A stretch of DNA of 27,738 nucleotides from a virus. Of the stretch, positions 1,729 through 22,357 are shown in pieces; position 1 is the stretch's first letter; each line of letters starts with the position of its first letter. The notes under the pieces were generated by a model. The model was not told where the DNA came from. It did not search any database and worked only from the letters and a program-made list of their open reading frames with translations. The translations under genes and the position numbers were made by a program. Location: positions 1 to 27,738 of IMG/VR virus record IMGVR_UViG_3300042515_000093; one strand, written 5' to 3'.

Positions 1729-2591
1729 TGGCCTCAGCTAAACGCATCATCAACCCTGCACCACCCAACTTACCACTGGGGCCGCAGGAGTACGAGCGTC
1801 GGTATCAGGATCAGTTTTCTAACGTCTTGCGTCTGTACTTTAACCAGCTAAAGAATGCGCTTGGTGAGTTGTTTGGCGATAACGGCGGCAGGTACATTGC
1901 CTTTCCCAACGGTGCGTTTTATCAAGACGGATACACAACGCTGACCGCCAACATGACGAACAACGGCACAACGCCAATACAGGTTACGTCCACCGCTAAC
2001 TTTTTTGCCCCCGGCGGTTTGATTATTGGTAGCGAGATTATTACCTATACAGGCAAGACCGCTACGACTTTCACAGGTATTACTCGTGGAGCGTATGGCT
2101 CTACCAACGTGGCGCACACTGCGGGGGTTTCTGTTTCGGAAGCCCAAACTCTTGCGTCTTCTAGTACCTCTACTGCACTGACTCTGCTTCAAACCACAGT
2201 AAGTAATGGCGTGTCTATTGATCCCGCCGACAAGACTAAAATTGTTCACTCAATTGCTGGTATCTACAACATTCAGTTCAGTATTCAGATGCTGACTTTT
2301 GACGGCACGATTGATAACGTGACAATCTGGTTTAGGCTCAATGGTGTGGACATCCCATACAGTGCGGGTATTGCAACGGTTCCGGGTATCCACGGTGGCA
2401 ACCCCGGTACGGCCATCATCTCTTGGAACTTGGTGCAACCAATGAACGCTGGGGATTACGTCCAGCTACTCTTCGCATCTAATACCGGCAACACGGTGGC
2501 GGCAACTTACCCACCCGGAACATCACCTGTGCATCCAGCATCTCCGTCCATTATTGTGACGTCAACATTTGTGTCTGCGTTACCAACATGA
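1728..2591 (+). CDS. Modular beta-rich virion protein, possible tail fibre or decoration protein
   Basis: This 287-residue protein starts on an ATG sharing one base with the preceding stop. Residues 1-68 form a polar N-terminus with an amphipathic stretch (YERRYQDQFSNVLRLYFNQL) that may attach it to the virion. Residues about 80-140 form a small module often seen in phage structural proteins, with the signature IGSEIITYTGK followed by GITRGAYGST and a histidine-alanine-glycine turn. Residues about 165-287 alternate short beta strands (AGIYNIQFSIQ, NVTIWFRLNGVDI, GDYVQLLFAS, PSIIVTSTFVS) in a layout like the C1q/TNF-type jelly rolls at the tips of phage fibres. I see no enzyme motif. The position between a tail-stabilisation protein and internal virion proteins suggests a tail or surface component. 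Receptor binding is possible but not shown. Confidence 0.6.
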   Translation: MASAKRIINPAPPNLPLGPQEYERRYQDQFSNVLRLYFNQLKNALGELFGDNGGRYIAFPNGAFYQDGYTTLTANMTNNGTTPIQVTSTANFFAPGGLIIGSEIITYTGKTATTFTGITRGAYGSTNVAHTAGVSVSEAQTLASSSTSTALTLLQTTVSNGVSIDPADKTKIVHSIAGIYNIQFSIQMLTFDGTIDNVTIWFRLNGVDIPYSAGIATVPGIHGGNPGTAIISWNLVQPMNAGDYVQLLFASNTGNTVAATYPPGTSPVHPASPSIIVTSTFVSALPT

Positions 2592-2625
2592 TATTATTGA
2601 CCAACCCCCATTTTGAGAGGCAAAC

Positions 2626-5505: not shown

Positions 5506-6546
5506 ATGGCTGATCCACAAATTCAACAAATAACGCAGTCGCAAACAACAATCCCTGACTACGCTAAGCCGTACGTCGAGAATCTGCTGGGGCAAACTGC
5601 TGCGCTGACTGACCTGAACTACAACCCCTATATGCAGTATCGGGGGGAGCGTGTTGCACAGTTCTCTCCATTGCAAAAACAGTCGTATGAAAATGCGGCT
5701 TTGATGCAGACCGCGCCTCAATTACAAGACGCAACAGCTTTGGCAGGGCAAGCGGGGTTAGCGGCAATTAACACGGGGTATACATACAACCCAATGACGA
5801 CTCAGTCATTTGGCGAAAACGCGCAAGCGTACATGAACCCGTACATAGACAATGTAATCAAGCGCCAGCAACAGGATGCTTCGCGTCAAGCGGCTATTGC
5901 TCAGCAAGCACAGGGTGCGCAGGCTGCTCGTTCTGGTGCGTTTGGTGGCAGTGGCGACTACCTCATGCGTGCACAAGGCGCGGCTAACTTAGCCCGTCAA
6001 AAAGGCGACATCATGGCCACCGGCATGAACAACGCCTACACACAGGGCATGAACCAGTTCAACCAAGAACAACAGCAGCGTCAGGCCGCAGCGCAGCTTA
6101 ACGCTCAACAAGGTCAGTTTGGTGCGGGTCTGGGACTGCAAGGCTTGCAGACAGCGCTCACTAGTGCCAACACTTTGGGCAACTTGGGCATGAACCAGTA
6201 CAACCAGAACATGGGTATTACGCAACAGCAGAACCAGTTCGGTGCCCAGCAGCAACAACAATCACAGAACATTCTGAACAATCAGTATCAGGACTTCTTG
6301 AACTTCCAAAACCACCCATACAAACAAGCGGCGTTCATGTCCGATATGTTGCGTGGTTTGCCACTGACTCAGCAATCAAATGCAATCTACAGCCCGCCCC
6401 CATCCTTGGCGTCGCAGGTGATTGGTGCCGGCACTGCCGCGTACGGGGCAAGCAGGGCGTTTGCTAAAGGCGGTAATGTTGAAGACGTTGCGTACAGAGA
6501 CAAACCCGCAGGTTTGGCCGATTTAGCTATCTATAACATGGGTTGA
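5506..6546 (+). CDS. Gln-rich putative internal virion protein
   Basis: A 346-residue protein with AAGGA about 8 nt before its ATG, 9 nt after the preceding stop. Residues 1-60 contain IPDYAKPYVENLLGQTAAL and a conserved-looking YRGERVAQFSPLQ segment. Residues about 110-150 are helical and rich in Gln/Ala, followed by SGAFGGSGDYLMRAQGAANLA. Residues 175-265 are very rich in Gln and Asn (runs such as QQNQFGAQQQQQSQ), suggesting an extended helical or disordered body. The C-terminus ends in AFAKGGNVEDVAYRD. Similar Gln-rich proteins sit beside internal-protein genes in podophages, so a core or ejected protein is likely. No enzymatic motif is visible. Transcription and translation probably continue directly into the next gene, whose ATG is 5 nt beyond this stop. 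Confidence 0.6.
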   Translation: MADPQIQQITQSQTTIPDYAKPYVENLLGQTAALTDLNYNPYMQYRGERVAQFSPLQKQSYENAALMQTAPQLQDATALAGQAGLAAINTGYTYNPMTTQSFGENAQAYMNPYIDNVIKRQQQDASRQAAIAQQAQGAQAARSGAFGGSGDYLMRAQGAANLARQKGDIMATGMNNAYTQGMNQFNQEQQQRQAAAQLNAQQGQFGAGLGLQGLQTALTSANTLGNLGMNQYNQNMGITQQQNQFGAQQQQQSQNILNNQYQDFLNFQNHPYKQAAFMSDMLRGLPLTQQSNAIYSPPPSLASQVIGAGTAAYGASRAFAKGGNVEDVAYRDKPAGLADLAIYNMG

Positions 6547-6551
6547 AGAAT

Positions 6552-8312
6552 ATGGCTTTTACACAGCAAACTACCGCAAGCGTTCCAAACGTTGATTTGA
6601 TTACGCAAACGCTGGCCAAGCTACAGCCAGATTCTGAGCTGCAAAAGTATGCGGCTATGCACAAGAACGACCCATACATCTTGTCGCTTGCTACGGCTGA
6701 GTCAAATCGCCGCAAAGCACTTCGCTTAGGTGCGCAAGGAAATGTTGGGCAAATGCCTAAAGTAGCAGACGCTGCTATTGCCGGTATGGCGCCAGCTCCC
6801 GGGGTCGCACAACTTCCAGAAGAACAAGGTATCGGAGCTTTGCCTGCCCCTAACATGCAGCGCATGGCTGATGGCGGTATTGCTGGCTACGACGATCAAG
6901 AAGGCATGGCTCAAGGCGGCATGTTTGACTTTGCCCAGACTAGCGAGCCTGTGGTTCGTATGGCTGATGGCGGGCATGTACCTCGTTACCAAGGTAACAC
7001 AGTAGACGGCAGTGTTGTTCGCAGCAACCCCTTGTTTAATGTCCCCGGCATGGTATCGGTACAGCCTAGGGCAAGCTTTACTCAAGCGGGGGCGCCTGAG
7101 AATCAAACGGTTTGGGAACAACTTTCTGGCAGTCTTCAAAAAGAAGGGGTTCAAAGACAACTTCAAATTATTGAAGACCGCATTGCACGTGGTATTGCAG
7201 GGCCTGAAGAAAAAGCTTACTACGCACAGTTAAAAGCTAAAGTTGAAGGTACACCACAACTGGCCGCACCTAAAGATTCTGTCAATCCTGATGAGGTTTT
7301 GATGGCTGCGGAAAAAGCAGCTAAAAATAAACCCGCCGCAACAAACGCTGCTGCTCCTTCTGCGGAGCCTAAACCAACAGTTAACAAACCCGCTGTCAAT
7401 ATGGGTGGCGGCCAAGGTATTAAAGCCTTATATGAGCAGTTTGCAGGGCCACAAAATGTTCGTGATACTGAACTGAATTCAATCGAACAACGTGTTCGTG
7501 AACAAGGCGAAGCAGAGACTTCTGCCGCTCAAAGACAACTGAACCAGTTAAAAGCAGACATTGCGGCTCAAGGCGAGTACGGCAAAGACCGCGAAACTAA
7601 ACTCAAAGCCAAAGAAGAGCGCATTGCCAAAGAAGAAGGCAGAGCTGGTGGACTAGCGCTTCTTGAAGCAGGTTTGGCCATGATGTCAGGCACGTCACAA
7701 AACGCATTTGCCAATATTGGTCAAGGCGCTATGGTTGGTACTGCCGCATACCGCAAGAGCATGGACAAACTTGAAGATGCGCGTGACAAACTTGAAGATG
7801 CGTATGGCCGTCTGGAAGATGTTCGCTTCAACCAAAAGAACCTGAACAACGCAGAGATTCGCAAAGCTACGGCTGACGTAGATAAAGCGGCCAATGCAGG
7901 TCTTAAGAGCCTCACAGATTTTGCGGTTACCCGTTACGGCATGAAGCGTGAAGATGCCAAGGCAATGTTTACTGGTGCTATACAAGAACGTGTGGCAAAT
8001 ATCAACGCAGGCGCTACGCTTGAGTCAGCACGTATGCGTTCCAAAGACCAGTCCGATTACTTGCAGGCTATTCGTGGTTCCGGCGCTATTGAGCAGGCCC
8101 GCAAGAACGTGATGGAGGGCGTTATGAAAGCCAACAAGTACGGCTCGCCTGAAGAAATCCAAGCGCAGTTTGAAAAAGAATGGGAAAAAACCTTGCAATT
8201 AAACCCAGCTCTGGCAAAATTAGCGGGCGCTGCCGGGGGCGGCAGTGCACCTGCATCTGGCGCTGATTTTGTGCTAAATCCGCAGACAGGAAAACTTGAA
8301 CCGAGAAAGTAA
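6552..8312 (+). CDS. Coiled-coil putative internal virion protein
   Basis: I chose the ATG at 6552 (MAFTQQTTAS, 586 residues) over a TTG at 6543 that overlaps the previous stop; GAAG lies a few bases upstream of the ATG. Residues 15-60 are helical (DPYILSLATAESNRRKALRL). Two copies of a short motif, RMADGGIAGYDD (about 104-115) and RMADGGHVPRY (about 136-146), match one in the 956-residue protein. Residues 310-440 are predicted coiled coil, broken at about 365-398 by a small-residue segment (GGLALLEAGLAMMSGTS...GQGAMVGTAAY) of a kind recurrent in phage internal proteins. A perfect heptad repeat, DKLEDAR/DKLEDAY/GRLEDVR, follows. The C-terminus is Gly/Ala-rich. It sits 3 nt before the giant gene. 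A role in the inner core or ejection apparatus is inferred from neighbours and composition. Confidence 0.6.
   Translation: MAFTQQTTASVPNVDLITQTLAKLQPDSELQKYAAMHKNDPYILSLATAESNRRKALRLGAQGNVGQMPKVADAAIAGMAPAPGVAQLPEEQGIGALPAPNMQRMADGGIAGYDDQEGMAQGGMFDFAQTSEPVVRMADGGHVPRYQGNTVDGSVVRSNPLFNVPGMVSVQPRASFTQAGAPENQTVWEQLSGSLQKEGVQRQLQIIEDRIARGIAGPEEKAYYAQLKAKVEGTPQLAAPKDSVNPDEVLMAAEKAAKNKPAATNAAAPSAEPKPTVNKPAVNMGGGQGIKALYEQFAGPQNVRDTELNSIEQRVREQGEAETSAAQRQLNQLKADIAAQGEYGKDRETKLKAKEERIAKEEGRAGGLALLEAGLAMMSGTSQNAFANIGQGAMVGTAAYRKSMDKLEDARDKLEDAYGRLEDVRFNQKNLNNAEIRKATADVDKAANAGLKSLTDFAVTRYGMKREDAKAMFTGAIQERVANINAGATLESARMRSKDQSDYLQAIRGSGAIEQARKNVMEGVMKANKYGSPEEIQAQFEKEWEKTLQLNPALAKLAGAAGGGSAPASGADFVLNPQTGKLEPRK
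7764..7802 (+). repeat. 21-bp heptad repeat in coiled-coil segment
   Basis: The 18-mer gacaaacttgaagatgcg occurs at 7764-7781 and 7785-7802, a 21-nt period that equals one coiled-coil heptad. A third, diverged heptad follows. This looks like a local duplication that lengthened the coiled coil by one turn pair. Confidence 0.8.
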
Positions 8313-8315
8313 ACT

Positions 8316-11300
8316 ATGAGCTACACCGTTGCTTTGCCTGATGGACGAACCGTTGAGTTTCCAGATAGCGTATCCAAAGAAAAAGCAGCGGAGATCCTTC
8401 GGGAACAACTTGGCATAGGCGGTTCCCCAGAAGAAGGTTTTGTACCTGCCGTCAAGGCAGGTATCTCTGGTTTAAAAAGCTCCGCTGCCGCCCTTGCTGG
8501 CCGCACAGGCGCTATGGATGCCGAACGTGCCAAGCAGGTCATGGCCGAGGAAGAAGCGTACCAAAGACGTACCTTCAAACCCACCGAGAAAGGCTGGACA
8601 GAAGCGCCAGTCACCAAATTCACAGAACTCCTTGGTGGCTCTTTGCCGTACATTGCAGCTCCTTTGGCTGCCGGTGCAGCCGCCACGATTGGCGGAGCTC
8701 CTGCCCTTGCCGCTACTGGCTTGGGTGCGTTGGTGTCAGGCGGTCAATTTACCGGTCAGTTCCTAAAGCGCCAGACTGAGGAAGGCACGCCACTTGAGCA
8801 AACAAACTTAGCTGCAGCCGCTGGCGCCGGCACAGTTGCAGGCGCACTTGATTTGCTGTCTTTCAAAATGTTCCCTGCTATTCGGGGTATTTTTGGTGCG
8901 GCGGGTAAAGAAATATCCCAAGATGCGGCTGAACAGATTGCCAAGCAAGGCATGACCAAAATGCTGGGCGACTACGCCAAAGCAACAGGCAAAGCAATTG
9001 GTGCAGAAAGTACTACCGAAGTAGCGCAGCAGTTCCTTGAGCGTTTGCAAGCCGGGTTGCAGCTTACGGACGACCAAGCCCGTGACGAGTACTGGGATAG
9101 TTTGATTGGCGGCGCGGTCTTGGGTGGCGCACTTGCCCCTGCTGGCCGTTACATTGAGCGCGGGAGAATTAGAACTGCTCAGGCAGAAGAAGCCCGTGCA
9201 GATCAAGCCAAACAAGTGCAGGCGCAAGAGGCTGAGAAGAAGCGCTTAGAAGCCGAGAAAGCTGAGTACCGCAAAACCCCCGAGTACTTAGACGAGATCC
9301 AGACCCGCTACGCTGACTTGCAAAAGCAAGAAGCTGACTTGCTGGCGCGTATTAAGGGCAAACCCGCTGAAGGCGATTTGGCCGCCGTAGCAGACAAACA
9401 AGAAGCCCGTACACAACTTAGAGAGCTACGCAAGACTGACGAGTACACAGGCACAGTTGAAGAGTATCGTCAAGCTAAGAAAGCGATTGATGAGCGTGCC
9501 AAAGAAACAACGGACAAAGCTGCGATTGCAGAAGCGGCCAAAGTGCCCGGCGCGCAGATGGATTTGTTTGGTGCGTTGCCTGAAGCCAAGGATCAGTCAC
9601 CAGTAGGTCAGTTGCGCACACTTGACACCCAGATCAAAGGTCTTGACGCACAGCTTGCCGAAGCTAAAAAGACAGGCGATCAAGCACAGATTCAAGCGCT
9701 TACCAACCAGCAGTTTGACCTGCAAAAGCAGTTCCAATCTATGGCCCCAACACCGACAAGCTATGCGGCTATGCGGGATACGGTCACCAAACAGATTGAA
9801 AACTTGCGCACCAAGTTGCAAGCGGCCACAAGTACTGACGACATGGAGCGCCTTGTCAACAGTATTAAACAGAACAAAGAAGCATTAACTCAGCTTGATG
9901 AACTAAAACCTTTTGTTGCTGCAGCCCCCAAGCAAACGGATGTTGCGTCCCGTGACGTTGAGATCAAAGACCTGCGCAAGAAAGTTGCACGTTACCAAGA
10001 GCTGGGCGACGACGAAGCGATTGCTAAGTTGTTACCGCGCCTAAAAGAACTGGAAGCCGTGCCCACATTGATGGAAGGCGATCAGTTCCGCAACGTTCCA
10101 ACAGACGACTTGTTTGCCGCTGAGATTGATGCTGGCGCAAAAGAAGCCCGTGAAACACGGGAGAGCGTTGAAGCTGAGATTGAAAAGCTTCGCGTGATGG
10201 CTGAAAGAGTTAAAACTACTTCGCCTGTTGCGCAAGCGTACCGCGATAGAGAACTTGGAAGAGCGCGTGCACTGCTGTCTTTGTTTGAAGAAAGTGAGCA
10301 GGATTGGGAAAAGCTTAAAAAAGATCCCGCCAACACTGAGTTCCGCGAAGACCGCGACAAGCTTAAAGCCACGCTTGAGAAAGACATCAAAGCGTTAGAA
10401 AAACGCGAAATCCCTAAAGATGCCGTACTTCCAACACGGGACACGTTTGAGCTTGGCGTTAAACGCAAAGCGTTGAAGAATTTAAATCGCCGTATGGAAG
10501 CGGCGGATCGCTTCAAAGACACGACCCCACTGGCGCAGAACATCATTGATGAGCGCACGGACGAGAACGTCTCGGCGTTGCTTGACTACTATTTGCCCAA
10601 GCTGACTCCTGCACAGGAAGGTTTTGATAAGCAAAACGACCGCGCCGCAATGGCTAGAGAGGTCAAAGAGCTGCGTGCCAAAGTACATGACGGTTTAATT
10701 GAAATTTACGACGCTGTCAAAATTAAAGACCTTGACGCTGTTCGTAACAACACTAGCAAGTTTCTGTTTAACTCAGATCGTCTGGTTAACCTTAATCGCA
10801 TTTTAAATAATGGCAAAGCATTAGAAGCGGAAGCCAAACTAGGTTTGCGTGAGCAATTGCTCACAGTAACAGACGACCTTAGAAAAACAGTTGAGAACCT
10901 AACACGTTCAAAAGCTGGGCTGCGCAAGTTAGACAAAGAAATTAAAGAAATTGGTCAGCCCACTTCCCCTGAGCAAGCAGAATCTTTGGGGGCAATGGAG
11001 AAGCGCAGAAATACGCTGGCGCTAGAAGTTAAAAAGCTGGAAGCAAAAACCGGTTGGGAAGACAAAGCCGACGCAGTAATTGACCGCTACAGCAGTGTTA
11101 TTCCCGAAGACCGTGAAGTCTCTAAAGCAGGTAAACAGCTTCCAATTGAGCGTGTTGAAGGGCGTGCTACCAGAATCGACGAAATTGTTCGTGAGTTGCG
11201 CCTTGTAAACGAAAAGGTGCAGAAGGCTGGCCGCCCAACAGACGAAGCTAAGATGGCTGCATTGGCGGAACTTAAAGACCGCCGTAAAGACCTTGGCAAC

Positions 11301-14300
11301 GAACTCAAAAAGTTAAGAGCTAGCGTGCCCTCAATTGAGGAAGCAAACAAGCTGGCAGGGGAATCCGTAGAGACAACGCCAGCCCAAGCACCCGATCTGT
11401 TTGGCATGTCTTCCAAAATGGAAAAGGTAACACGCGCCGCATTAGGCGACGTGTTGGCAAAACTGCGGGGGCTTTATGCCCAACGAACCAAACTTGTTGC
11501 GCAAGTAGAGAAACGCGGGCGTCTGCCTTCAACAGAAGGCGAACAAAAGCTTGTCGAGCTTTTTGACAAAGGACCGTCTGGCCAGATCAGAAGTATTAAC
11601 GCCAAGATACGGGAGTTAGAAGGTACCCGCGACGCACTGCAAAAACGTAGTGCTCGTGAATACCAGCAGTATCAGGAAGCGGCGCGTCAACCTGTTGTTG
11701 AGCCCGATCAGTTGGCTGAAATGCAACAGCAGCTTGGCAACATTGAGCGCCAGCTAAAAGGGCTGACTGTTCAATCCGGTGCCGGCAACATCCGCGCACA
11801 GTTGGAAAAAGCCCGTGACGACCTCAAGGCAAAGATTGCCGCTGGCACGCAAGAGGAAGAGATTGCACCCGCAGGCAAACAAAAAGAGTTGCCCGGCGTT
11901 CAGCCCCAGCGCCTTGCGCCCACACTGCGTGAGATTACGCCTGAAGAGTTGACCGAGGCTCGTACTGCGTTTGTGGCGGCAGAGACTAAGGTTGAAGAGC
12001 TGAAGAAAGCTGTACGCAATACAGAAGCAGTGCAAGAGAACCCACAGTACTTTAAGGAAGTGGCGCAAAGATTTAGAGACGAAGCCAAGGCTTTTAGGGA
12101 AGAGTTTGCCCAGACGCCTGACAACTTCCTTTTGCAAAAGCTTGAGTCTGACGCCAAATCACGCGAACAAAACGCACGCTACTTTGAAATGCTGGCAACG
12201 CTGTCGGAAGAAGGCCGTGCTGATTTACAAGCCGTTCAAAAAGAACTGACGCAAGCGCAAAAAGATTTGCCAAAGGCAGAAGCCGCATTCCGTGACTTAG
12301 AGCGCCGCCAGCGTATGCAACAGCAACAGCAAGCGGCTGTGACTGGCGCTGCTCCCGGACAGGTTGAAGCTGAGCGCATTAAAGCTGGGGAGTCTCGTGA
12401 GTTCCGTTCGCCAACAGGCAAGGCGCTTACTAAGCCTAAGAGAGCTGAAAGCTGGGACATTAAAAAAGAATCTGTCGCGCCCGTGGCCAAAGTGCCAGAA
12501 GTTGTTAAAGCACAGAAGGCGCTGTCCAGAGCAACAGAGTTAGCTCGTATGTCGAGCAGAGAGCTGACTACCGCTAGAGGTAAGTTGGCTGAGTCTGGCG
12601 TTACGCAAGAAATTAGACAACAGCAACAAGTCATACAGGAGCTTGAGCCGCTTGTTAAAGGCGCGTTCTCTGAAGACAACGTCAAGGCTATTGACGACGA
12701 GTTGGCAAAAATTGATGCGATATTGCAGGCGCGGGGATCTGATAAACAGAAACAGCCGTCTCCTGTAATTGCCAAGATGAAAGGGCCGTTGCCAAAAGAC
12801 TACGCAGCTTCTGTCGATTTTGCTGAGAAAGACGCCCGTAGCGAATATATGGCGGCCAAGAAGCTGAGCGACGCTTCTCAAAACGCATACGAGACTGCAC
12901 GCAAAGCAATTGACGACTTGCCTTCTACTGCTTCAGGCCTAGAGTTTGGCCGGTTAGATAGCGCTATGACTCGCGCTTCTAGTGCTACTGACAAGCTGCT
13001 ACCTAAGACACAAGCTGCTGAGCTGGCTTACTTGGCCGCACGTCGAGACAATCTGACTTTGAACAAGTTGATGGGGCAGGACTTGCGTGAAGCGTTTGTA
13101 AACACAAGCGCTCGTTTGGCTAAAGCTTTGGACAAAGAGTCGCCGCTTGTCAAACAAATTGAAGAAGCAAAAGCTACAGCCGCTAAAGCTGAAAAAGCAC
13201 GCGAAGAAGCGGAAGCCAAAGCCCGTGAGGAAGAGCGCAAAATACAGGCTGAAAGAAATGCCGATCTGGTAGAGAAACAGAAGGCGTTGGACGCGGCCAA
13301 GGCAGAGAAAGAACGCCTTGAGAAAGCCACATCTGGCGCTGGCTACGAGAGACGCCGCTTTACACGGGACACATCATCCCCCGAGATGACCGCCGAGCTT
13401 AACCGCCTCAAACGTGCCTTGGCTACGGCTGACACAAACTTGGGTAAAGCCAAGGAAAAGAACAACGCTGCAGACATCAAGAAGTACCAAGACGAGTACA
13501 ACCAGCTTGAGTCTAATATCGACACCCTGTACGCAGCAGCGCCTATTGTTGAGCGTGATCTGGAGCAGGGGGCTGGCCCACAGCCAGACGTTGCTGAAGG
13601 TATGCGTCTGCCTTCCCGTAAAGAAGGCCCTGTTGTTCGCAACATGACGGGCGCTAAGCGCGTGCGTCAATCGGGTGTGACTAAGCTTCGTGCAGATGGT
13701 CTGTCCCAAGAAGCTGCTAACGCAGTTCATTTGTTTACAGTCAAGGCTCGTTTGGATGGCGCTACAGAAGCCAGCCGTGCCAAGTTGGAGACAGCGTACG
13801 CAGAAGCTACCGAAGGTTTGACTGAAGAGCAAGTTGCCGCGCAGTTGGCTGAAGGTGAGCGTCTGTTGGGTCAAGGCCCGACGATTGAAATTATTGCCGC
13901 TCGTGAGCGCTTCCGTCAGGCTTTGATTGAAGTGGATAAAGCCCAAAAAGCTTTTGACGAAGCCAAGACACCTGCCACTAAAGAGTTGGCGCAAGACGCC
14001 CTCGATCTTGCAAACCAGCAAAGCGATTCCGCAGAGACCGCATACAAAAACGCTCGTGATGTTCGTGCGTCTAAGGCACTCAAAGGCGGAGCGCAAGCAG
14101 AAGTCGAAGCCGCAATCGATGCCGCTACTGCCAAGCAGGAAGCGGCCACACTGCCAGAGATTGACGAAGAAGGCCCGATCCAAGGTGCTGCAACGCAGTA
14201 CACCGAGATGGAGCAGGCACAGTTATCTGATGCGGCCAAAGAAGCGCTTGCCGATGGACGTTTGCTTGACGCTGTAAACGATGTGGCTGAGAACGGCCAG

Positions 14301-17300
14301 ACAGACTTTATTCGTCAGAACGCCAAGAACGTGGTCAACATGTTGCTTCGCACCAAGGTTGTGATCGATCCCGACTTGGTCGATGGTTTGGGCAACCCTG
14401 TGCCAGCGTTCTATGACAACGTGACAAACACGGTTAAGTTCCGTCCCGGAGAGCAAACAGAAGAGAACTTGATCCACGAGGTTACCCACGCCGCATCACT
14501 GCGCGGTTTGGTGATGCCTGCCAGCGATCTGACCAAGGAACAGCTTGCGGCGCGTAACGAGTTGAATGCCATGTTCAACCAACTGAAGAAAGACAAGGCG
14601 CTGGTAAACGAGTATGGCTTGACCAACGTTGCCGAGTTTGCGTCTGAGGTACAGTCTAACAAGGACTTCCGTGACCGCATCAACCAAAAGCCTTGGTTTG
14701 GCGGCAACATGCTGTCTCGTTTCTTCCAAGCGTTGTTGCGTTTGATCGGCTTTAAGACCGGCCAAGTTACCACCGATGTGGCTACCAAGAACATCGAGGC
14801 GCTGTACATGCCTTCGCAGAGGTTCCAGATGGTTGAGTCGCTCAACACTGCGTCTGTGTTTCGTACCAAAGCGCCAGCAACTAGTTCAGTGATTGTTGGC
14901 CAAGAAGCTGGCAGACTTAAGACGCTTAAAGAAAACTTGTTTGGCTTGGGCGGTCGCGTACAGTTAGTTGATAAACTGGCGGCGGCAGATGCCGCTATTG
15001 TGGCCGGTGAAAGCGCAGGTAAGCTGTCCTCTACTGAAGCGTTCCAAGCCCAGTACTTCATGCGCTTGGCTGACAACACTACGCAAACCGCTGGGCAGTT
15101 CATCACGCACGGCCCCGTGTCAATCGTGGCAGACAAAACTGCGTTAGGCACTGAGTACCGCTACCAATCATCCACAGGCGCTAACCTTGTTCAGATGACT
15201 GAGCACGTAGATGATGCCGCTAAAGCTGGCTTGGGTGAGGATGCCGAGCGCATCCTGACAGTTCAGATTGCTGGTGAGCGTGCGGAAGCTACGCCTAACG
15301 GCTGGGCGCGGTTACTGTCCTCTGATCCTGCGGCGGCTAAGGCTGAGTACTTGCGTGACAAGGCTACGCTTGCGGCTAACCCCGAAGCCAAGAAGAGCAT
15401 TGATGCTGCCAAGGCGGTGTACAAAGAGTACAACAACGGCCTCATAGACTTTATTGTCCAGTGCGGGTTTATCACCAAGCAAGAAGGCGCTCGTCTGAAG
15501 AAGACGCCGTTTATCCCGTTCTATCGTATTGAGAACAACGAGGTCAAGCTGTTCACCGACAAGGAGAGCAGCATCCGTATTGGCAACATCAAAGAGAACC
15601 CAGACTTGCAACGCATGTTGGGCGATGAGAAAACCATTTTGCCAATCCTGACCAGCGCTGTGCAGAACACGTTCATGTTGTCCCGTGCCGGTCTGAGAAA
15701 CAACGCTACACATAAGACAGCCGACGCGCTGTACAAGGCGGGGTTTGCATCCAAGATCGGCAAGGGAAGCGGCCCAACCGGAACCGATGTGGTTCGTTAC
15801 AAGGTTGACGGCGTCGATTACTTTGCTGTTATTGACACAGACACGTTTGGTATCCCTGCACATCTGATTGTCAAAGGCATGGAAGGTATCAAAACCACCA
15901 TCCCCGCGATTGTGCAGATGATGGGCATACCGGCTGACTGGGTACGTAAGTTTGTGACCCGTAGCCCTGCCTACGCTATTCGTCAGTTGATCCGTGATCC
16001 AGTTAACGCTGCGATTGTTGGTGGTGTGGATGGCGTGCCTGTGGTTAATGCTTTGAAGCAATTGGCTAAGATGCGTGCTGGCCGTAGCCCTGCCGAAGAA
16101 GCGCTGATGCGTGGTCTGGCTATCAGTAGCAACGTCTACACTGGCGATGAGAAGGACATGCAGAAGTTCTTGCAAGACATCGGCACAGGTCGCGGCAAGT
16201 GGGATAAGATGCTGGGTATGCTGGACACTGTGGCGCTTCAGGCAGATGCGGCTACCCGCGCTACCATCTACGAAGATTCGCTGAAGAAAGGCTTTACCGA
16301 AGCGCAGGCGCAGTTCCGTGCGTTTGAGTCTCAGAACTTTAGCCGTCGTGGTTTGTCGCCAAGCATCCAGATGCTGAGCACTATGGTTCCGTTCTTTAAC
16401 GCACAGATTCAGGGCTTGGATGTCTTGTATCGTTCGTTCAAAGGCACAACACCTTTTGCAGAGCGTCTGGAGATTCAGCGCAAGATCAAGGCGCGTGGAC
16501 TTATGTTGATGGCCGGAACCTTGGCGTATGCCTTGATGATGGAAGACGATGAAGACTACCGCAAGCTACCGCCCGAAGTTAAATACGGCAACTGGTTTGT
16601 GCGCATTCCAAACGTCAAAGACCCGCTGAAGATTCCTATCCCTTACGAGGTGGGTATCTTGTTCAAGGCGTTGCCCGAAGCCATTTTGGACGTAGCTCGG
16701 CGCGATACCAAGGCCAAAGAAGCCATTAAAGGTTTGGGCATGTTGCTCTGGCAGTCCACCCCGGGCGTTGTACCTGTGGCTGGCAAGCCGGTCATCGAGG
16801 CATCGATTGGCGCTACTCCATACGGACCGATTGAGTCGGCAAGGGAGAAGCAGTTGCCAGCGGCTATGCGCTACCGCGAAGAAACGACCGAAGTGGCCAA
16901 AGCTTTGGGCTCGTACACCGGTGCTGTTGGCGTGTCGCCCCTGATGATTGAGCACTTCGTGCGTAGCTACACCAGCGCCTTGGGGCTGTCAGCGTTGCAC
17001 ATGCTAGATCCGGTCTTGCGCTCGTCGACAGAAGGCGAAAAAGCTTCTACGTCTGCAAGCAAGTTGCCGTTCATTGGCGGTTTGTTCCAGTCAACCGATG
17101 GGCGTTTCATCATCGATCGTGCGTACAACCGCATGGAAGAAGTTGTCCAAGCGCAGCAGGGCTACGAGGACTTAGCACGCCGAGGCAAGAAGGCTGAAGC
17201 CAAAGCATGGGCGCAGGAGTATGCGTCGCTGTTGGCGCAAGCCGACATGGCTGGAAACTTCAAGAAAACTATGGGGGAAATGTTCACCGATGAGCGTACG

Positions 17301-17423
17301 GTGCGGGCTGACTCAAGGCTGTCAACAGCCGAGAAGGACAAGCTGATCGCACGCATCAAAGCGGCGCAGAATCGAGAGGCCGAGGCTTTCTATCAGGCAA
17401 CCGAAAGAAGAAGACCCCAGTAA
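8316..17423 (+). CDS. Giant polyvalent virion/ejection protein with zincin-like and LPD38-like domains
   Basis: A single uninterrupted frame of 3035 codons, starting 3 nt after the previous stop. Residues 1-35 form a small N-terminal module (YTVALPDGRTVEFPD...AAEILREQLG) seen on phage internal proteins. Residues about 105-185 and 255-280 are Gly/Ala-rich hydrophobic segments able to interact with membrane. About 285-1900 is almost continuous charged coiled coil rich in Lys, Glu, Ala and Gln. A metallopeptidase-like domain (about 1960-2190) carries H2054-E-V-T-H2058, with E2107/E2111 in NVAEFASEVQ as candidate third zinc ligand. Residues 2200-3035 contain PFIPFYR, SQNFSRRGLSPS and PFFNAQIQG, the pattern of the LPD38 domain (large polyvalent protein-associated domain 38). 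Very large virion proteins of this kind occur in podophages such as Bcep22. The ejected-core role is inference. No lytic transglycosylase motif was recognised. Confidence 0.7.
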   Translation: MSYTVALPDGRTVEFPDSVSKEKAAEILREQLGIGGSPEEGFVPAVKAGISGLKSSAAALAGRTGAMDAERAKQVMAEEEAYQRRTFKPTEKGWTEAPVTKFTELLGGSLPYIAAPLAAGAAATIGGAPALAATGLGALVSGGQFTGQFLKRQTEEGTPLEQTNLAAAAGAGTVAGALDLLSFKMFPAIRGIFGAAGKEISQDAAEQIAKQGMTKMLGDYAKATGKAIGAESTTEVAQQFLERLQAGLQLTDDQARDEYWDSLIGGAVLGGALAPAGRYIERGRIRTAQAEEARADQAKQVQAQEAEKKRLEAEKAEYRKTPEYLDEIQTRYADLQKQEADLLARIKGKPAEGDLAAVADKQEARTQLRELRKTDEYTGTVEEYRQAKKAIDERAKETTDKAAIAEAAKVPGAQMDLFGALPEAKDQSPVGQLRTLDTQIKGLDAQLAEAKKTGDQAQIQALTNQQFDLQKQFQSMAPTPTSYAAMRDTVTKQIENLRTKLQAATSTDDMERLVNSIKQNKEALTQLDELKPFVAAAPKQTDVASRDVEIKDLRKKVARYQELGDDEAIAKLLPRLKELEAVPTLMEGDQFRNVPTDDLFAAEIDAGAKEARETRESVEAEIEKLRVMAERVKTTSPVAQAYRDRELGRARALLSLFEESEQDWEKLKKDPANTEFREDRDKLKATLEKDIKALEKREIPKDAVLPTRDTFELGVKRKALKNLNRRMEAADRFKDTTPLAQNIIDERTDENVSALLDYYLPKLTPAQEGFDKQNDRAAMAREVKELRAKVHDGLIEIYDAVKIKDLDAVRNNTSKFLFNSDRLVNLNRILNNGKALEAEAKLGLREQLLTVTDDLRKTVENLTRSKAGLRKLDKEIKEIGQPTSPEQAESLGAMEKRRNTLALEVKKLEAKTGWEDKADAVIDRYSSVIPEDREVSKAGKQLPIERVEGRATRIDEIVRELRLVNEKVQKAGRPTDEAKMAALAELKDRRKDLGNELKKLRASVPSIEEANKLAGESVETTPAQAPDLFGMSSKMEKVTRAALGDVLAKLRGLYAQRTKLVAQVEKRGRLPSTEGEQKLVELFDKGPSGQIRSINAKIRELEGTRDALQKRSAREYQQYQEAARQPVVEPDQLAEMQQQLGNIERQLKGLTVQSGAGNIRAQLEKARDDLKAKIAAGTQEEEIAPAGKQKELPGVQPQRLAPTLREITPEELTEARTAFVAAETKVEELKKAVRNTEAVQENPQYFKEVAQRFRDEAKAFREEFAQTPDNFLLQKLESDAKSREQNARYFEMLATLSEEGRADLQAVQKELTQAQKDLPKAEAAFRDLERRQRMQQQQQAAVTGAAPGQVEAERIKAGESREFRSPTGKALTKPKRAESWDIKKESVAPVAKVPEVVKAQKALSRATELARMSSRELTTARGKLAESGVTQEIRQQQQVIQELEPLVKGAFSEDNVKAIDDELAKIDAILQARGSDKQKQPSPVIAKMKGPLPKDYAASVDFAEKDARSEYMAAKKLSDASQNAYETARKAIDDLPSTASGLEFGRLDSAMTRASSATDKLLPKTQAAELAYLAARRDNLTLNKLMGQDLREAFVNTSARLAKALDKESPLVKQIEEAKATAAKAEKAREEAEAKAREEERKIQAERNADLVEKQKALDAAKAEKERLEKATSGAGYERRRFTRDTSSPEMTAELNRLKRALATADTNLGKAKEKNNAADIKKYQDEYNQLESNIDTLYAAAPIVERDLEQGAGPQPDVAEGMRLPSRKEGPVVRNMTGAKRVRQSGVTKLRADGLSQEAANAVHLFTVKARLDGATEASRAKLETAYAEATEGLTEEQVAAQLAEGERLLGQGPTIEIIAARERFRQALIEVDKAQKAFDEAKTPATKELAQDALDLANQQSDSAETAYKNARDVRASKALKGGAQAEVEAAIDAATAKQEAATLPEIDEEGPIQGAATQYTEMEQAQLSDAAKEALADGRLLDAVNDVAENGQTDFIRQNAKNVVNMLLRTKVVIDPDLVDGLGNPVPAFYDNVTNTVKFRPGEQTEENLIHEVTHAASLRGLVMPASDLTKEQLAARNELNAMFNQLKKDKALVNEYGLTNVAEFASEVQSNKDFRDRINQKPWFGGNMLSRFFQALLRLIGFKTGQVTTDVATKNIEALYMPSQRFQMVESLNTASVFRTKAPATSSVIVGQEAGRLKTLKENLFGLGGRVQLVDKLAAADAAIVAGESAGKLSSTEAFQAQYFMRLADNTTQTAGQFITHGPVSIVADKTALGTEYRYQSSTGANLVQMTEHVDDAAKAGLGEDAERILTVQIAGERAEATPNGWARLLSSDPAAAKAEYLRDKATLAANPEAKKSIDAAKAVYKEYNNGLIDFIVQCGFITKQEGARLKKTPFIPFYRIENNEVKLFTDKESSIRIGNIKENPDLQRMLGDEKTILPILTSAVQNTFMLSRAGLRNNATHKTADALYKAGFASKIGKGSGPTGTDVVRYKVDGVDYFAVIDTDTFGIPAHLIVKGMEGIKTTIPAIVQMMGIPADWVRKFVTRSPAYAIRQLIRDPVNAAIVGGVDGVPVVNALKQLAKMRAGRSPAEEALMRGLAISSNVYTGDEKDMQKFLQDIGTGRGKWDKMLGMLDTVALQADAATRATIYEDSLKKGFTEAQAQFRAFESQNFSRRGLSPSIQMLSTMVPFFNAQIQGLDVLYRSFKGTTPFAERLEIQRKIKARGLMLMAGTLAYALMMEDDEDYRKLPPEVKYGNWFVRIPNVKDPLKIPIPYEVGILFKALPEAILDVARRDTKAKEAIKGLGMLLWQSTPGVVPVAGKPVIEASIGATPYGPIESAREKQLPAAMRYREETTEVAKALGSYTGAVGVSPLMIEHFVRSYTSALGLSALHMLDPVLRSSTEGEKASTSASKLPFIGGLFQSTDGRFIIDRAYNRMEEVVQAQQGYEDLARRGKKAEAKAWAQEYASLLAQADMAGNFKKTMGEMFTDERTVRADSRLSTAEKDKLIARIKAAQNREAEAFYQATERRRPQ

Positions 17424-17586
17424 AGCCTTCGTAGATGCCCGTTTTAGCACGGGCATCTAGTACGCGGCAAAGGACTGCCTTGCGCAGCCCTAGTTCACGG
17501 ACGGCGTCCGTGTCGAGGCAGGGGATGAAGAACCCCTGCCCCCTTTCAATCGTCTCCCAAGGGAATCGGATTAAGGATTGTTTCAT
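17356..17586 (-). CDS. Small conserved-looking phage protein of unknown function bridging the convergent junction
   Basis: A leftward ORF of 76-77 codons from the ATG at 17586 (a GTG at 17613 would add nine residues). It overlaps the last 41 nt of the primase-helicase gene in another frame and runs antisense through the last 68 nt of the giant gene. The translation looks like a real compact protein: FPWETIERGQGFFIPCLDT, then AVRELGLRKAVLCRVLDARA, then TGIYEGFTGVFFFRLP. This GFF(I/V)PCLDT...AVRxxGL...GVxFxR layout is one I associate with short uncharacterised phage proteins, but I cannot name a family. GACGAAG precedes the ATG as a weak ribosome binding site. The three hairpins at 17432-17540 lie inside it. 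The alternative is a chance ORF read through a terminator region. Confidence 0.6.
   Translation of the reverse strand: MKQSLIRFPWETIERGQGFFIPCLDTDAVRELGLRKAVLCRVLDARAKTGIYEGFTGVFFFRLPDRKPRPLDSAPL
17432..17459. terminator. 11-bp perfect hairpin just after the giant gene; possible (bidirectional) terminator
   Basis: tagatgcccgt (17432-17442) pairs perfectly with acgggcatcta (17449-17459) around the loop tttagc. It begins 8 nt after the giant gene's stop, where a terminator is expected between convergent units. No T-run follows on either strand, so an intrinsic terminator is uncertain. It also lies inside the 77-codon leftward ORF. Confidence 0.4.
17496..17540. other. Two further GC-rich hairpins at the convergent junction
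   Basis: A 17-bp palindrome with one central base lies at 17496-17512 (cacggacg, g, cgtccgtg). An 8-bp stem follows: ggcagggg at 17517-17524 with cccctgcc at 17533-17540, loop atgaagaa. With the hairpin at 17432 this makes three stems in about 110 bp. Neither is followed by a clear T-run. Confidence 0.5.
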
Positions 17587-20440
17587 CGACTTCGTCCATC
17601 TTACGTCTGACACGCATGACTGTTACGCGCATGGGAGGGCCCTTGGTCTTGGCAGTCATGTTCTTCTTCAAATATTCGATTGGGAATTGATCCTCAAGCT
17701 GGCGCTTGAATGAAGCGTAACCGAAACTTGTAGAAGCGCAATAGGACTTTAGCAGTTGCTCTTCAATGAAGTAGTCCACGTAACCGGATGTCATGCCGTG
17801 CTCAACACGCCCAAGAATCTTGTTGCGCGTGATCGTCTGGTCAATGATCTGACCGCTACCGAGTTCGGCCAGCAAGCCGCCAGTGCTAGGACGCACAACG
17901 ACAAAGCTGCCATAACTCTCACGGGTGTACGCGTTCAGGATGTCTTCAGCAGTGCGGACACTGTTCTTCATACTGGCGCGCATAGTAGCCACAACTTTCT
18001 TAAAAGCGTTCAAGACAGGGCGCAGGGGGATCTCGACAATGCCTGCCGCCTTAAAAGCGTTGCGTGCTTGCACTGCGGTTCCGATGCCTGCCATCCAGAA
18101 GCGCTCATCGTTGGTTGCGTTGAACTCTGTGTACATGGCGGCAACCGACTCACGCACAGATGTAGGGAACTCATCAGCATGCTCCACCATGTACTCGACT
18201 AGCTTGTAGCCAGCCACGCCATAGTTGTGTTGCAGTGCCTTGATGATCTCAATCTCATGGGGTTCCCATGACAGCTCTTCTTCAAAGGTGAACTCAAGCA
18301 GACGGCGAAGCTCGCCCTCAGATGAGTGATCGCGGCCACCAGTCAGGTAGTCCACAACGTGGGTGTTAGATGACATCAAGCACACAGTCATCCATGTAGA
18401 CAAGTTCAAGCGCTCTTTGTTGGAGCCGGACTCCATACGCTCCTTGCCACGACCCTCGGTCATATCCAAGAGAAACTCAGGTAACCACTCGGGGGCGGCT
18501 CTGTTCTTGGCGGTGATCTCATCCGTGATAAGCGGATGGCTGTTGAGCAAGCCTAGGCGTTGCTGCATGGCGACAGGTGAAGTGCTCTTGCCTGTGCGGT
18601 AGTGAGTTGGGTGTCCCCAAACAGAAGCTGCGGCTTCAAGAGACAAAGTCTTACCCGTCCCCGACTCCGTGGATGCACAATGGTACGTCATCCCGTAGAT
18701 GCCTGTAAAGCGCATGAAGGGTGCGCCAGCACCGGCAAGGATTACGGCTATGTGCCCCCACATCTTCTTGGTAATCAACAAGTTCATGAAGTCACGCCAA
18801 GCCTCAAGTGTGCCCTTGGGTTCGGTGTTCACTGTGATGTTCTCCAGCCCCGGCATAGGAACCTTGACTGGTGGTTTGCCCTTGCTAAAGATGCGTCCTG
18901 CATACACGTACGTGTTGTCGATCTGCCATCCGTAGCTGTCGGGCACTTTGATTGCCGGCTTGTTTGTACTAGCTTCCTCTACGCAAGCCCTCACATATTC
19001 AAACAAGTTCTTGTCGTTGCCGTGGCCAAAAGAAGCCACGATGTTTTGACTAGCCAGCGCTTTAACTGTTTCGTCTTTGCTAACGACTGCCCTTTGCGGC
19101 ATAGTCACATTCACTGCACCTTCAGGCTTGAGCGCTATCATGTGCACTGTGTGATCCCCGTTGCTGTTGAGAATGTCAACAACAAACAGTTCGTATGGCA
19201 ACAGCATGACCTGCTTCTTGGCCTTGTTGCCTTCGTCATCTTCTACTGTGCGCTCCATGAACGTGCCGCCGTTGGCTCCATAGGAGTAGCCGCGTGGCGG
19301 TGTCGGGCGCATGACCTTGATGATTTCTTTCTCGGTGACTGTGCTCTCGCTTGAGAGTTTCACCTCGATCTCTTTCTCCTCGACCTCAACCGCCAACTCA
19401 CGACCTAGGATCAGTGGGTTGGTGATCTTGCCCCAATGCGTGCATGTTGGGCACACGCCGGGGTTCTCGGAGTCCATCTTGACGCAGGGGTATGGGCCTT
19501 TGATGCTTTGCAGCTTTTGGTTCATACGCTCTGGCTCGTAGGGATGCATCTTGCTCAGCCATACAGCCGCCTTGTTGCCATCCTCACAGACTTTTGTCCA
19601 TGACAGTAAGCCACGCCAGATCGGCTCCATGCCCTCTTCGGTTGCGTGTTCAACGTAATGCGCAAGTTGGTTGCAACCCCGCGCATTTTGCGTAGCCAGC
19701 CAAATTGGTTTGAACTTGGTTACGCTGTTCTCAAAGAGTTTGACACTGGTTGCAGAAGGGGCGGAAGCCGCAGATGGGCGTGTGCCTGCCAAGTCTAGCT
19801 TGGGCGTGTTGGTAGGCTCGTATAGTGAGCCAGTCAGTTTTTCCCTGAACAGGGCGGCCAACCCTTCGAAGCTGAACACATCGCCTTCAGTTAGTATGCG
19901 CACAGGGCGCGGCGTTGCGTACTTCTTCTTGAAGTTGGTGGTGTCAGGCACACGCAAGACACGGGCGGCATCAGCCGTCACTGTCATGTCGATAGCCAAA
20001 CCTTCCTGTTTGCACAGGCGTTTGAAGTTCTCAGCCACGGGCTTCCAAGTATCGACAGGCACGGCTTGTAGAAGTGGCCAGTAGCAGTGCAAACCGCCGC
20101 CAGAACCAACGACATAAGGTGTGCCTAGGGCATCCATGCCTGTGTTACTTAAAAACGCACTGAGCGCTTGCGCTGCGTCCTTCTTCGATGCATACCCATC
20201 CATGTCAATAAACAAGGATTTCACGTACCGAGCGTTGGCCGCAGTTCGGTTGTCTTCATCGCCAAAGGTAGCCAAGGCAAAGTAGATGTCAAACTTACTG
20301 TCGTGCCAACGCTTGATGTGCGCAGGTGCGTCTTCCAGAGTCGCCGTGAAAACGTGCTCTTTCTTTGTGAGTTCTGCTACGCAGTACCGACCAAATTCTG
20401 GCGGCGGCAGAACAACCGCTAAAAACTCAAGCGGAGTCAT
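17546..20440 (-). CDS. Primase-helicase fusion (AEP/PrimPol-like primase plus DUF927-like superfamily helicase)
   Basis: A 964-residue protein with AAGGA about 6 nt before its ATG. The N-terminal part (residues 1-200) has PrimPol-type archaeo-eukaryotic primase motifs: SLFIDMDGY with D79 and D81, GSGGGLHCYW with H118, and DAARVLRVPDTTNFK with R163 and K171. Cysteines 319, 330 and 333 (with H335) in PYPC...CPTCTHWG suggest a small zinc-binding linker. The C-terminal half is an ATPase with Walker A STESGTGKT (590-598) and a Walker B-like LITDE (637-641), together with SVWGHPTHYRTGKST, resembling DUF927/phage D5-type replicative helicases. The protein would unwind the fork and lay primers for the family A polymerase encoded upstream. 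It ends the main leftward operon, apart from the small ORF overlapping its 3' end. The primase and ATPase calls are strong; exact family assignment is not. Confidence 0.82.
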   Translation of the reverse strand: MTPLEFLAVVLPPPEFGRYCVAELTKKEHVFTATLEDAPAHIKRWHDSKFDIYFALATFGDEDNRTAANARYVKSLFIDMDGYASKKDAAQALSAFLSNTGMDALGTPYVVGSGGGLHCYWPLLQAVPVDTWKPVAENFKRLCKQEGLAIDMTVTADAARVLRVPDTTNFKKKYATPRPVRILTEGDVFSFEGLAALFREKLTGSLYEPTNTPKLDLAGTRPSAASAPSATSVKLFENSVTKFKPIWLATQNARGCNQLAHYVEHATEEGMEPIWRGLLSWTKVCEDGNKAAVWLSKMHPYEPERMNQKLQSIKGPYPCVKMDSENPGVCPTCTHWGKITNPLILGRELAVEVEEKEIEVKLSSESTVTEKEIIKVMRPTPPRGYSYGANGGTFMERTVEDDEGNKAKKQVMLLPYELFVVDILNSNGDHTVHMIALKPEGAVNVTMPQRAVVSKDETVKALASQNIVASFGHGNDKNLFEYVRACVEEASTNKPAIKVPDSYGWQIDNTYVYAGRIFSKGKPPVKVPMPGLENITVNTEPKGTLEAWRDFMNLLITKKMWGHIAVILAGAGAPFMRFTGIYGMTYHCASTESGTGKTLSLEAAASVWGHPTHYRTGKSTSPVAMQQRLGLLNSHPLITDEITAKNRAAPEWLPEFLLDMTEGRGKERMESGSNKERLNLSTWMTVCLMSSNTHVVDYLTGGRDHSSEGELRRLLEFTFEEELSWEPHEIEIIKALQHNYGVAGYKLVEYMVEHADEFPTSVRESVAAMYTEFNATNDERFWMAGIGTAVQARNAFKAAGIVEIPLRPVLNAFKKVVATMRASMKNSVRTAEDILNAYTRESYGSFVVVRPSTGGLLAELGSGQIIDQTITRNKILGRVEHGMTSGYVDYFIEEQLLKSYCASTSFGYASFKRQLEDQFPIEYLKKNMTAKTKGPPMRVTVMRVRRKMDEVDETILNPIPLGDD

Positions 20441-21955: not shown

Positions 21956-22357
21956 TTAAGTAGGTTTGCGTACAGAGATATCGAACTCAGATGTGGAGTT
22001 CAGGCCGGGCGGTACGACCCCGGGGTTTTCTTCTAAGAACTGTGACATGTTGGATTGCGCAATGCGCTTCTCCAAAAGCTCGACGGCCTCGTGTGCCAGT
22101 ACGAACTTCTTGAACTCATCCCAGTCCTGTGTGTAGTAGCGAGTCTTCACGGACATGACTGCCGTGCCCTCGGTAGTGCGAACTGATGTGACGCCCATCG
22201 CCTTCATCTGTTCCTTGATAGCGTTCTTGATCTCGTCCTGTTGCGCCTTGAGTACTTCAGTTTGCGTGTCGTACTCTTGGGTCAGTTCGGTCATCTTTGT
22301 GCGTAACTTGCGGTAAATTTTTACCAGCTTGTCTAGCGGTACTGCTTCTTCTTCCAT
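21956..22357 (-). CDS. Coiled-coil phage protein beside the SSB candidate (Gp157/Gam-like layout)
   Basis: A 133-residue protein with AGGAG six nt before its ATG and only 12 nt before the next gene. Residues 5-50 are a coiled coil (KLVKIYRKLRTKMTELTQEY, then LKAQQDEIKNAIKEQ). It is followed by a small beta element VTSVRTTEGTAVMSVKTRYY, then a helical segment DWDEFKKFVLAHEAVELLEK and the tail PPGLNSTSEFDISVRKPT. The coiled coil followed by a beta element and a short acidic C-terminal part recalls Siphovirus Gp157 and Gam-type proteins, which are encoded near phage recombination genes and can modulate host nucleases. That comparison is by layout only. Function unassigned. Confidence 0.65.
   Translation of the reverse strand: MEEEAVPLDKLVKIYRKLRTKMTELTQEYDTQTEVLKAQQDEIKNAIKEQMKAMGVTSVRTTEGTAVMSVKTRYYTQDWDEFKKFVLAHEAVELLEKRIAQSNMSQFLEENPGVVPPGLNSTSEFDISVRKPT

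Follow-up and report, generated by a model that had tools for sequence, protein, structure and literature searches.

A giant LPD38 protein from a phage operon carries a zincin-like domain related to that of known ejection proteins

We describe a giant gene of a viral DNA stretch of 27,738 nucleotides (IMG/VR record IMGVR_UViG_3300042515_000093, analysed at full length and hereafter called the window), encoding a 3035-residue protein in which a zincin-like metallopeptidase domain precedes a conserved C-terminal module with an LPD38 core. Profile comparisons indicate that the zincin shares ancestry with domains of known phage ejection proteins, and each full-length relative keeps one of two metallopeptidase families but never both. 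Judging from these sequence relationships, the giant is probably an ejection protein with an active zincin. The record is probably a fragment; the related records that we looked at mostly measure 60-66 kb.

Results

The giant gene and its relatives

The gene occupies positions 8316-17423 (+ strand) as an intact, uninterrupted frame, as the first-pass annotation had read it, and its product has a predicted mass of ~333 kDa. Besides the open frame itself, conservation in many IMG/VR contigs supports the gene. When it was compared with five close relatives, dN/dS ranged from 0.035 to 0.13 across regions, with the exception of the N-terminal region versus one of them (L005, 0.24); we therefore conclude that purifying selection acts on the entire chain. 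Relatives are numerous: a first search returned 17 loci, a search with the zincin profile 49 loci, and one with the C-terminal module 404 confirmed matches. The plasmid collection that we searched contained none, and the C-terminal profile gave one weak match against bacterial and archaeal genome contigs.

Scans of the giant against Pfam, PHROG and NCBIfam recognised LPD38 only, the remaining hits being below threshold or of low complexity (e.g., Rad50-like), and a phmmer search of the whole giant against the PDB retrieved nothing notable. The PDB sequence matches reported below came from family profiles only.

A zincin-like domain with an invariant catalytic set

The zincin-like domain spans residues 1963-2188 (14202-14879, + strand), an assignment well supported by the invariant columns, the predicted fold and the profile matches. 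The H2054-E-x-x-H2058 motif and the downstream NVAEFASEV cluster, both pointed out in the first-pass annotation, are present. An alignment of 45 relatives, whose columns average 33% identity, leaves just six columns invariant: H2054, E2055, H2058, E2107, F2108 and E2111. The same annotation had proposed to abandon the zincin reading if structure prediction gave no such fold around residue 2054; the AlphaFold2 model is instead confidently zincin-like (pLDDT 89.1, pTM 0.83). It orders three helices, three strands, the HExxH helix, a linking helix and the Glu helix, and thus includes the zincin hallmark of a three-stranded sheet with one N-terminal and two C-terminal core helices. With Foldseek, the top PDB matches of this model were zincin families, although weak (best E 0.03), led by anthrax lethal factor, a M. 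tuberculosis regulator, MATCAP, IrrE/PprI and selecase; the PhiM1 protein discussed below was absent among the fold matches listed.

The ligand set is of the gluzincin type, HExxH followed by a helix with Glu. E2107 is the likely third zinc ligand, since PhiM1 gp48 and 9sfn_G keep a Glu equivalent to E2107 and not to E2111; the E2107 position is also aligned in N4. On these residues, the domain would be an active zinc protease.

Homology to solved ejection proteins

We searched 177,635 distinct PDB sequences with a zincin profile built from 45 sequences. The tetrameric ejection protein gp48 of phage PhiM1 (E=5.1e-10) ranked first and an "Internal virion protein" (9sfn_G, E=7.9e-8) second; "gp10" (E=0.006) ranked lower, as did a virion RNA polymerase (E=0.57). 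Since the alignments to PhiM1 gp48 and 9sfn_G cover 117-121 profile positions and reach beyond the motif, these matches are not motif-only. N4 vRNAP (gp50) also aligns with the zincin profile (hhalign P=91%, E=1.3e-6), matching at HELVH (whose Glu is E2229), at NEF and at the third-ligand Glu, and its match sits in the domain named C1, which has a zincin-type HExxH (PMC12633501). We also observed a PHROG match to "virion RNA polymerase" in one relative, which was not located in the members re-scanned.

PhiM1 gp48 (PDB 8vb2; PMC11440229) resembles the giant in its homologous zincin, with HEAAH near residues 385-389 and an aligned Glu, and in being the largest of the ejection trio. On the other hand, it has 1263 residues, the equivalent of E2111 is Gln, and its C-terminal part lacks detectable similarity to that of the giant. 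Residues 268-528 of gp48 have been labelled endolysin/exotransglycosidase-like (PMC11440229). The zincin profile match, at residues 379-513, overlaps this region and suggests that it holds a zincin instead.

N4 gp50 is likewise a third ejection gene product, of ~3500 residues, with the zincin-like C1 followed by a large helical C2 domain (PMC12633501). It differs from the giant by its RNA polymerase domain and by C2, for which no similarity to the LPD38 module was detected when the two were compared.

The phage-type polyvalent proteins that combine MPTase and LPD38, described by Iyer et al. in 2017 (PMC5512222), share with the giant a near-C-terminal LPD38, a zincin-like metallopeptidase, the giant size and the late structural operon. 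The window's protein departs from them in that no further catalytic domain is recognised and its zincin has no significant Pfam match. Two recognised domains, zincin and LPD38, are combined in its single chain.

Among isolated phages, Burkholderia phage JC1 provides virion data: mass spectrometry of its CsCl-purified virions identified the DarB-like gp69 (4515 aa) by 51 unique peptides (PMC9144972). JC1 gp69 resembles the giant in its near-C-terminal LPD38 (residues 4195-4401), its HExxH motifs and its place as the last gene of the virion operon, behind smaller virion-associated proteins. However, it also has transglycosylase, methylase and helicase-like domains, and the C-terminal profile of the giant family stays below threshold in it. 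The giants of Synechococcus phage MinM2 and Planktothrix phage Pag-Yong1 have an LPD38 module 26% identical to that of the window, but in them a few hundred residues separate the zincin from the C-terminal module. MinM2 further shares the zincin, with HEAVH, and has RTX-like and ejection-protein genes in syntenic positions upstream, while its giant differs by a RelA/SpoT annotation.

Two mutually exclusive and exchanged protease families

We examined 69 distinct full-length giants, of which 40 have one HExxH, 28 have one HExxxH and one (MinM2) has two HExxH. Chance does not explain these motifs, because shuffling the family sequences leaves 0.010 HEx(2-3)H motifs per protein, whereas the real ones average 1.01. 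With profiles, and counting the window, the HExxH family was found in 41 giants, the HExxxH family in 28, and both in none; the downstream Glu is invariant in the HExxxH group as well. The giants retained from the C-terminal-module search, which is blind to the protease, gave the same picture, all 41 having one type or the other (18 and 23). We rejected the reading that the ~40% of relatives lacking a match to the zincin profile are protease-free, as the complete HExxxH and Glu set is present in them.

On the tree of the C-terminal module, the motif type switches 12 times, ~9 of these switches being forced by supported branches, although the tree is a quick model and recombination in the middle region may underlie each switch. 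Close sister pairs are among them (L082/L083 and L040/L049). Such an exclusive presence of one of two metallopeptidase families in 69 of 69 giants, with ~9-12 switches, argues for a required catalytic step. To our knowledge, mutual exclusion and repeated exchange of protease types within one family have not been described. The HExxH and HExxxH forms were both described in the 2017 survey (PMC5512222). The short LPD38 proteins of HTVC204P and Pascal, and the annotated frame of HTVC010P, have no HExxH, so that the rule covers giants and not LPD38 proteins at large.

Between protease and C-terminal module, some relatives hold exchangeable segments (L040, residues 2320-2503; L094, residues 1401-2243). 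One of these presumably reads like an ADP-ribosyltransferase, and one of them is a large domain common to about ten relatives. An FtsK gamma domain was seen in one giant of 18 scanned.

The C-terminal module

Pfam LPD38 (PF18857) matches residues 2745-2920 (16548-17075, + strand) with 104.3 bits against a curated cut-off of 27 (E=1.1e-29), which confirms the LPD38-like C-terminus of the first-pass annotation; a search of the giant's own record likewise supports the domain. LPD38 is a mere core of a longer module of ~830 residues (2205-3035; 14928-17420, + strand), delimited by conservation, which is mostly helical and the most conserved part of the giant. In all phage relatives the module ends 0-11 residues from the C-terminus. 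The AlphaFold2 model that includes it is weak (pLDDT 70, pTM 0.49); with this model Foldseek returned only chance helical matches, and at that confidence no relation to solved ejection proteins was detectable by sequence or fold.

The N-terminal region and the central helical stretch

The N-terminal region (residues 1-290; 8316-9185, + strand), delimited by alignment and hydropathy, opens with an LPDG motif and has a conserved AExxTExxQQxxERxQAGL block. When searched alone by tblastn against isolated phages, it had no match. Hydrophobic N-terminal segments spanning the envelope had been proposed earlier. Ala/Gly segments do occur near residues 105-183, but their hydrophobicity is mild, with Kyte-Doolittle 19-residue peaks of 1.36-1.51 against the usual transmembrane threshold of 1.6, and the spanning of the envelope is possible rather than established.

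Residues 291-1940 (9186-14135, + strand), delimited by composition and heptad windows, are charged, rich in helix and almost without His and Trp, and include the least conserved part of the giant. Heptad-like windows are seven times commoner here than in shuffles (7% vs 1%). They cover ~556 residues in ~13 runs of 30-70 residues each, so this stretch is not one long coiled coil, and the some 1600 residues of coiled coil previously assigned to the protein were an overstatement.

The operon and its neighbours

The giant is a large multidomain protein encoded among phage structural genes; the adjacent genes have matches in virion structural and DNA ejection families. Upstream to downstream, the order is a virion structural family gene, a tail-fibre-like gene, an RTX-repeat gene, a 346-aa gene, a 589-aa gene and the giant, followed by convergent replication genes; this order holds across the relatives sampled. 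The 346-aa gene (5506-6546, + strand) belongs to the DNA ejection protein family phrog_4287 (E=1.1e-9), which is matched by 30 of 31 aligned members of its gene family. The 589-aa gene (6543-8312, + strand) keeps its position directly before the giant. It is listed from a TTG that overlaps the previous stop; the ATG at 6552, three codons in, is the likelier start.

The resulting small-medium-large order (346-589-3035 aa) is kept in relatives, with the giant third, as are T7 gp16 and N4 gp50. In Vibrio phage VvAW1, a P22-like example, the LPD38 giant comes after a gene annotated as DNA transfer protein and one further gene. The LPD38 protein of Pelagibacter phage HTVC204P is flanked by the genes for an internal virion protein and for the tail fibre. 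The two upstream proteins of the trio, searched alone by tblastn, had no match in isolated phages, and their profiles retrieved no solved relative. In the relatives' records we found no match to P22-type or T7-type portal, Tube, sheath or PhageMin_Tail families, two of which were silent in the controls too.

Some further observations concern the gene content around the giant. The 346-aa ejection gene is held in an enlarged frame of ~830-865 aa in L048 (2466-5060), L066 (2108-4609) and L041 (1113-3611); in L048, both upstream trio genes match one frame and look fused. The RTX gene of the window (2626-5496) encodes a 956-aa protein with RTX calcium-binding repeats within the virion operon, and the MinM2 operon has a calcium-binding protein gene at the matching position. 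Downstream of the giant, a 92-aa frame (17435-17713) overlaps the 3' end of the opposite-strand primase-like gene (17546-20440) and recurs in relatives; it is possibly only the shadow of this conserved gene. Finally, a 133-aa protein (21956-22357) matches the PHROG "minor head protein" (E=3.9e-25), in an odd place among reverse-strand replication genes.

Discussion

Packaging and ejection of the giant are probable and well supported by homology, because it shares its zincin with ejection proteins, it holds the third-gene position in the operon, and JC1 gp69 is found in virions. The packaged and ejected virion protein of the first-pass annotation is thereby upheld by homology, its virion status being read from relatives rather than seen in the window. 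We propose that the giant serves a tailed phage as its large third ejection protein, equivalent in position and role to T7 gp16, PhiM1 gp48 and N4 gp50, in the LPD38 "polyvalent" form. It would be made late and packed into the head alongside the smaller products of the two genes next upstream; its expulsion into the cell would then precede or accompany that of the DNA. Each N4 virion contains about four copies of gp50, an analogue of the giant, which threads a ~35 A channel and presumably anchors through its N-terminal domain; this domain inserts in nanodiscs (PMC12633501). By analogy, the giant may be packed, threaded out and then refolded, its N-terminal region probably docking to channel or membrane, its charged helical stretch acting as a flexible, threadable spacer, and its conserved C-terminal module constituting the delivered core.

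As to the substrate of the zincin, our leading proposal, at somewhat less than even chances, is that it cuts the ejected giant itself after delivery, freeing the C-terminal module or dismantling the channel. Alternatively, the zincin could act as an effector on a host protein, for instance a defence or regulatory one, and cut it after injection, the remaining giant being the delivery vehicle; we consider this somewhat less likely. Effector domains are frequent in polyvalent proteins, host-protein cleavage is among the options named in the 2017 survey (PMC5512222), and the exchangeable extra segments that relatives bear between protease and C-terminal module fit such a role. However, effector domains usually come and go, whereas the metallopeptidase is kept in every full-length relative while its neighbours vary. 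This pattern fits self-processing, or the freeing of the C-terminal module, better than an effector that could be done without. Moreover, the same zincin domain is found in distantly related phages of different hosts.

Processing of the giant during head assembly, before packaging, is improbable. It has been proposed for P1 DdrB, which is processed at that stage, but N4 vRNAP, with its homologous zincin, reportedly enters the head in unprocessed form, which argues against pre-packaging cleavage in N4 (PMC5512222).

We regard as slightly more improbable still that the zincin cuts cell-wall peptide cross-links for the passage of the ejection channel. The published label of PhiM1 gp48 overlaps the zincin match and would favour this role, as would the fact that no transglycosylase domain is recognised in the window's giant, but the octameric protein of PhiM1 has a separate lysozyme-like domain (PMC11440229). 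Likewise, the middle ejection gene of one relative carries its own endolysin domain, and the domain of the giant is an HExxH and Glu zincin, not a glycosidase. The peptidases that phages direct at the wall mostly belong to the M15/M23 types rather than to HExxH. Lastly, although we know of no podophage ejection-protein zincin for which protease activity has been shown, our literature search having found none, the fold is very unlikely to be a non-catalytic structural relic, in view of the complete invariance of its catalytic residues and of its repeated exchange for a clade with a complete HExxxH and Glu set.

To prior knowledge, these results add the zincin homology with solved ejection proteins and the exclusive, exchangeable nature of the protease. 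The giant thereby joins two literatures that rarely meet, the comparative genomics of polyvalent proteins and the cryo-EM of ejectosomes, and our data suggest that the labelled region of PhiM1 gp48 likely holds a zincin common to N4 vRNAP and the LPD38 giants. Since every full-length LPD38 giant of this family keeps one metallopeptidase, exchanged repeatedly between two clades, and the HExxH-type domain is also found in PhiM1 gp48 and N4 vRNAP, we tentatively suggest, at less than even chances, that many tailed phages could need proteolysis by the third ejection protein in order to deliver their genome, and that the protease may cut the ejected assembly itself. If true, such cutting would explain the release or take-down of the channel after DNA entry. 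A kept, exchangeable protease in the largest part of the ejectosome offers a residue-level way into how this machine is dismantled once the genome has been delivered.
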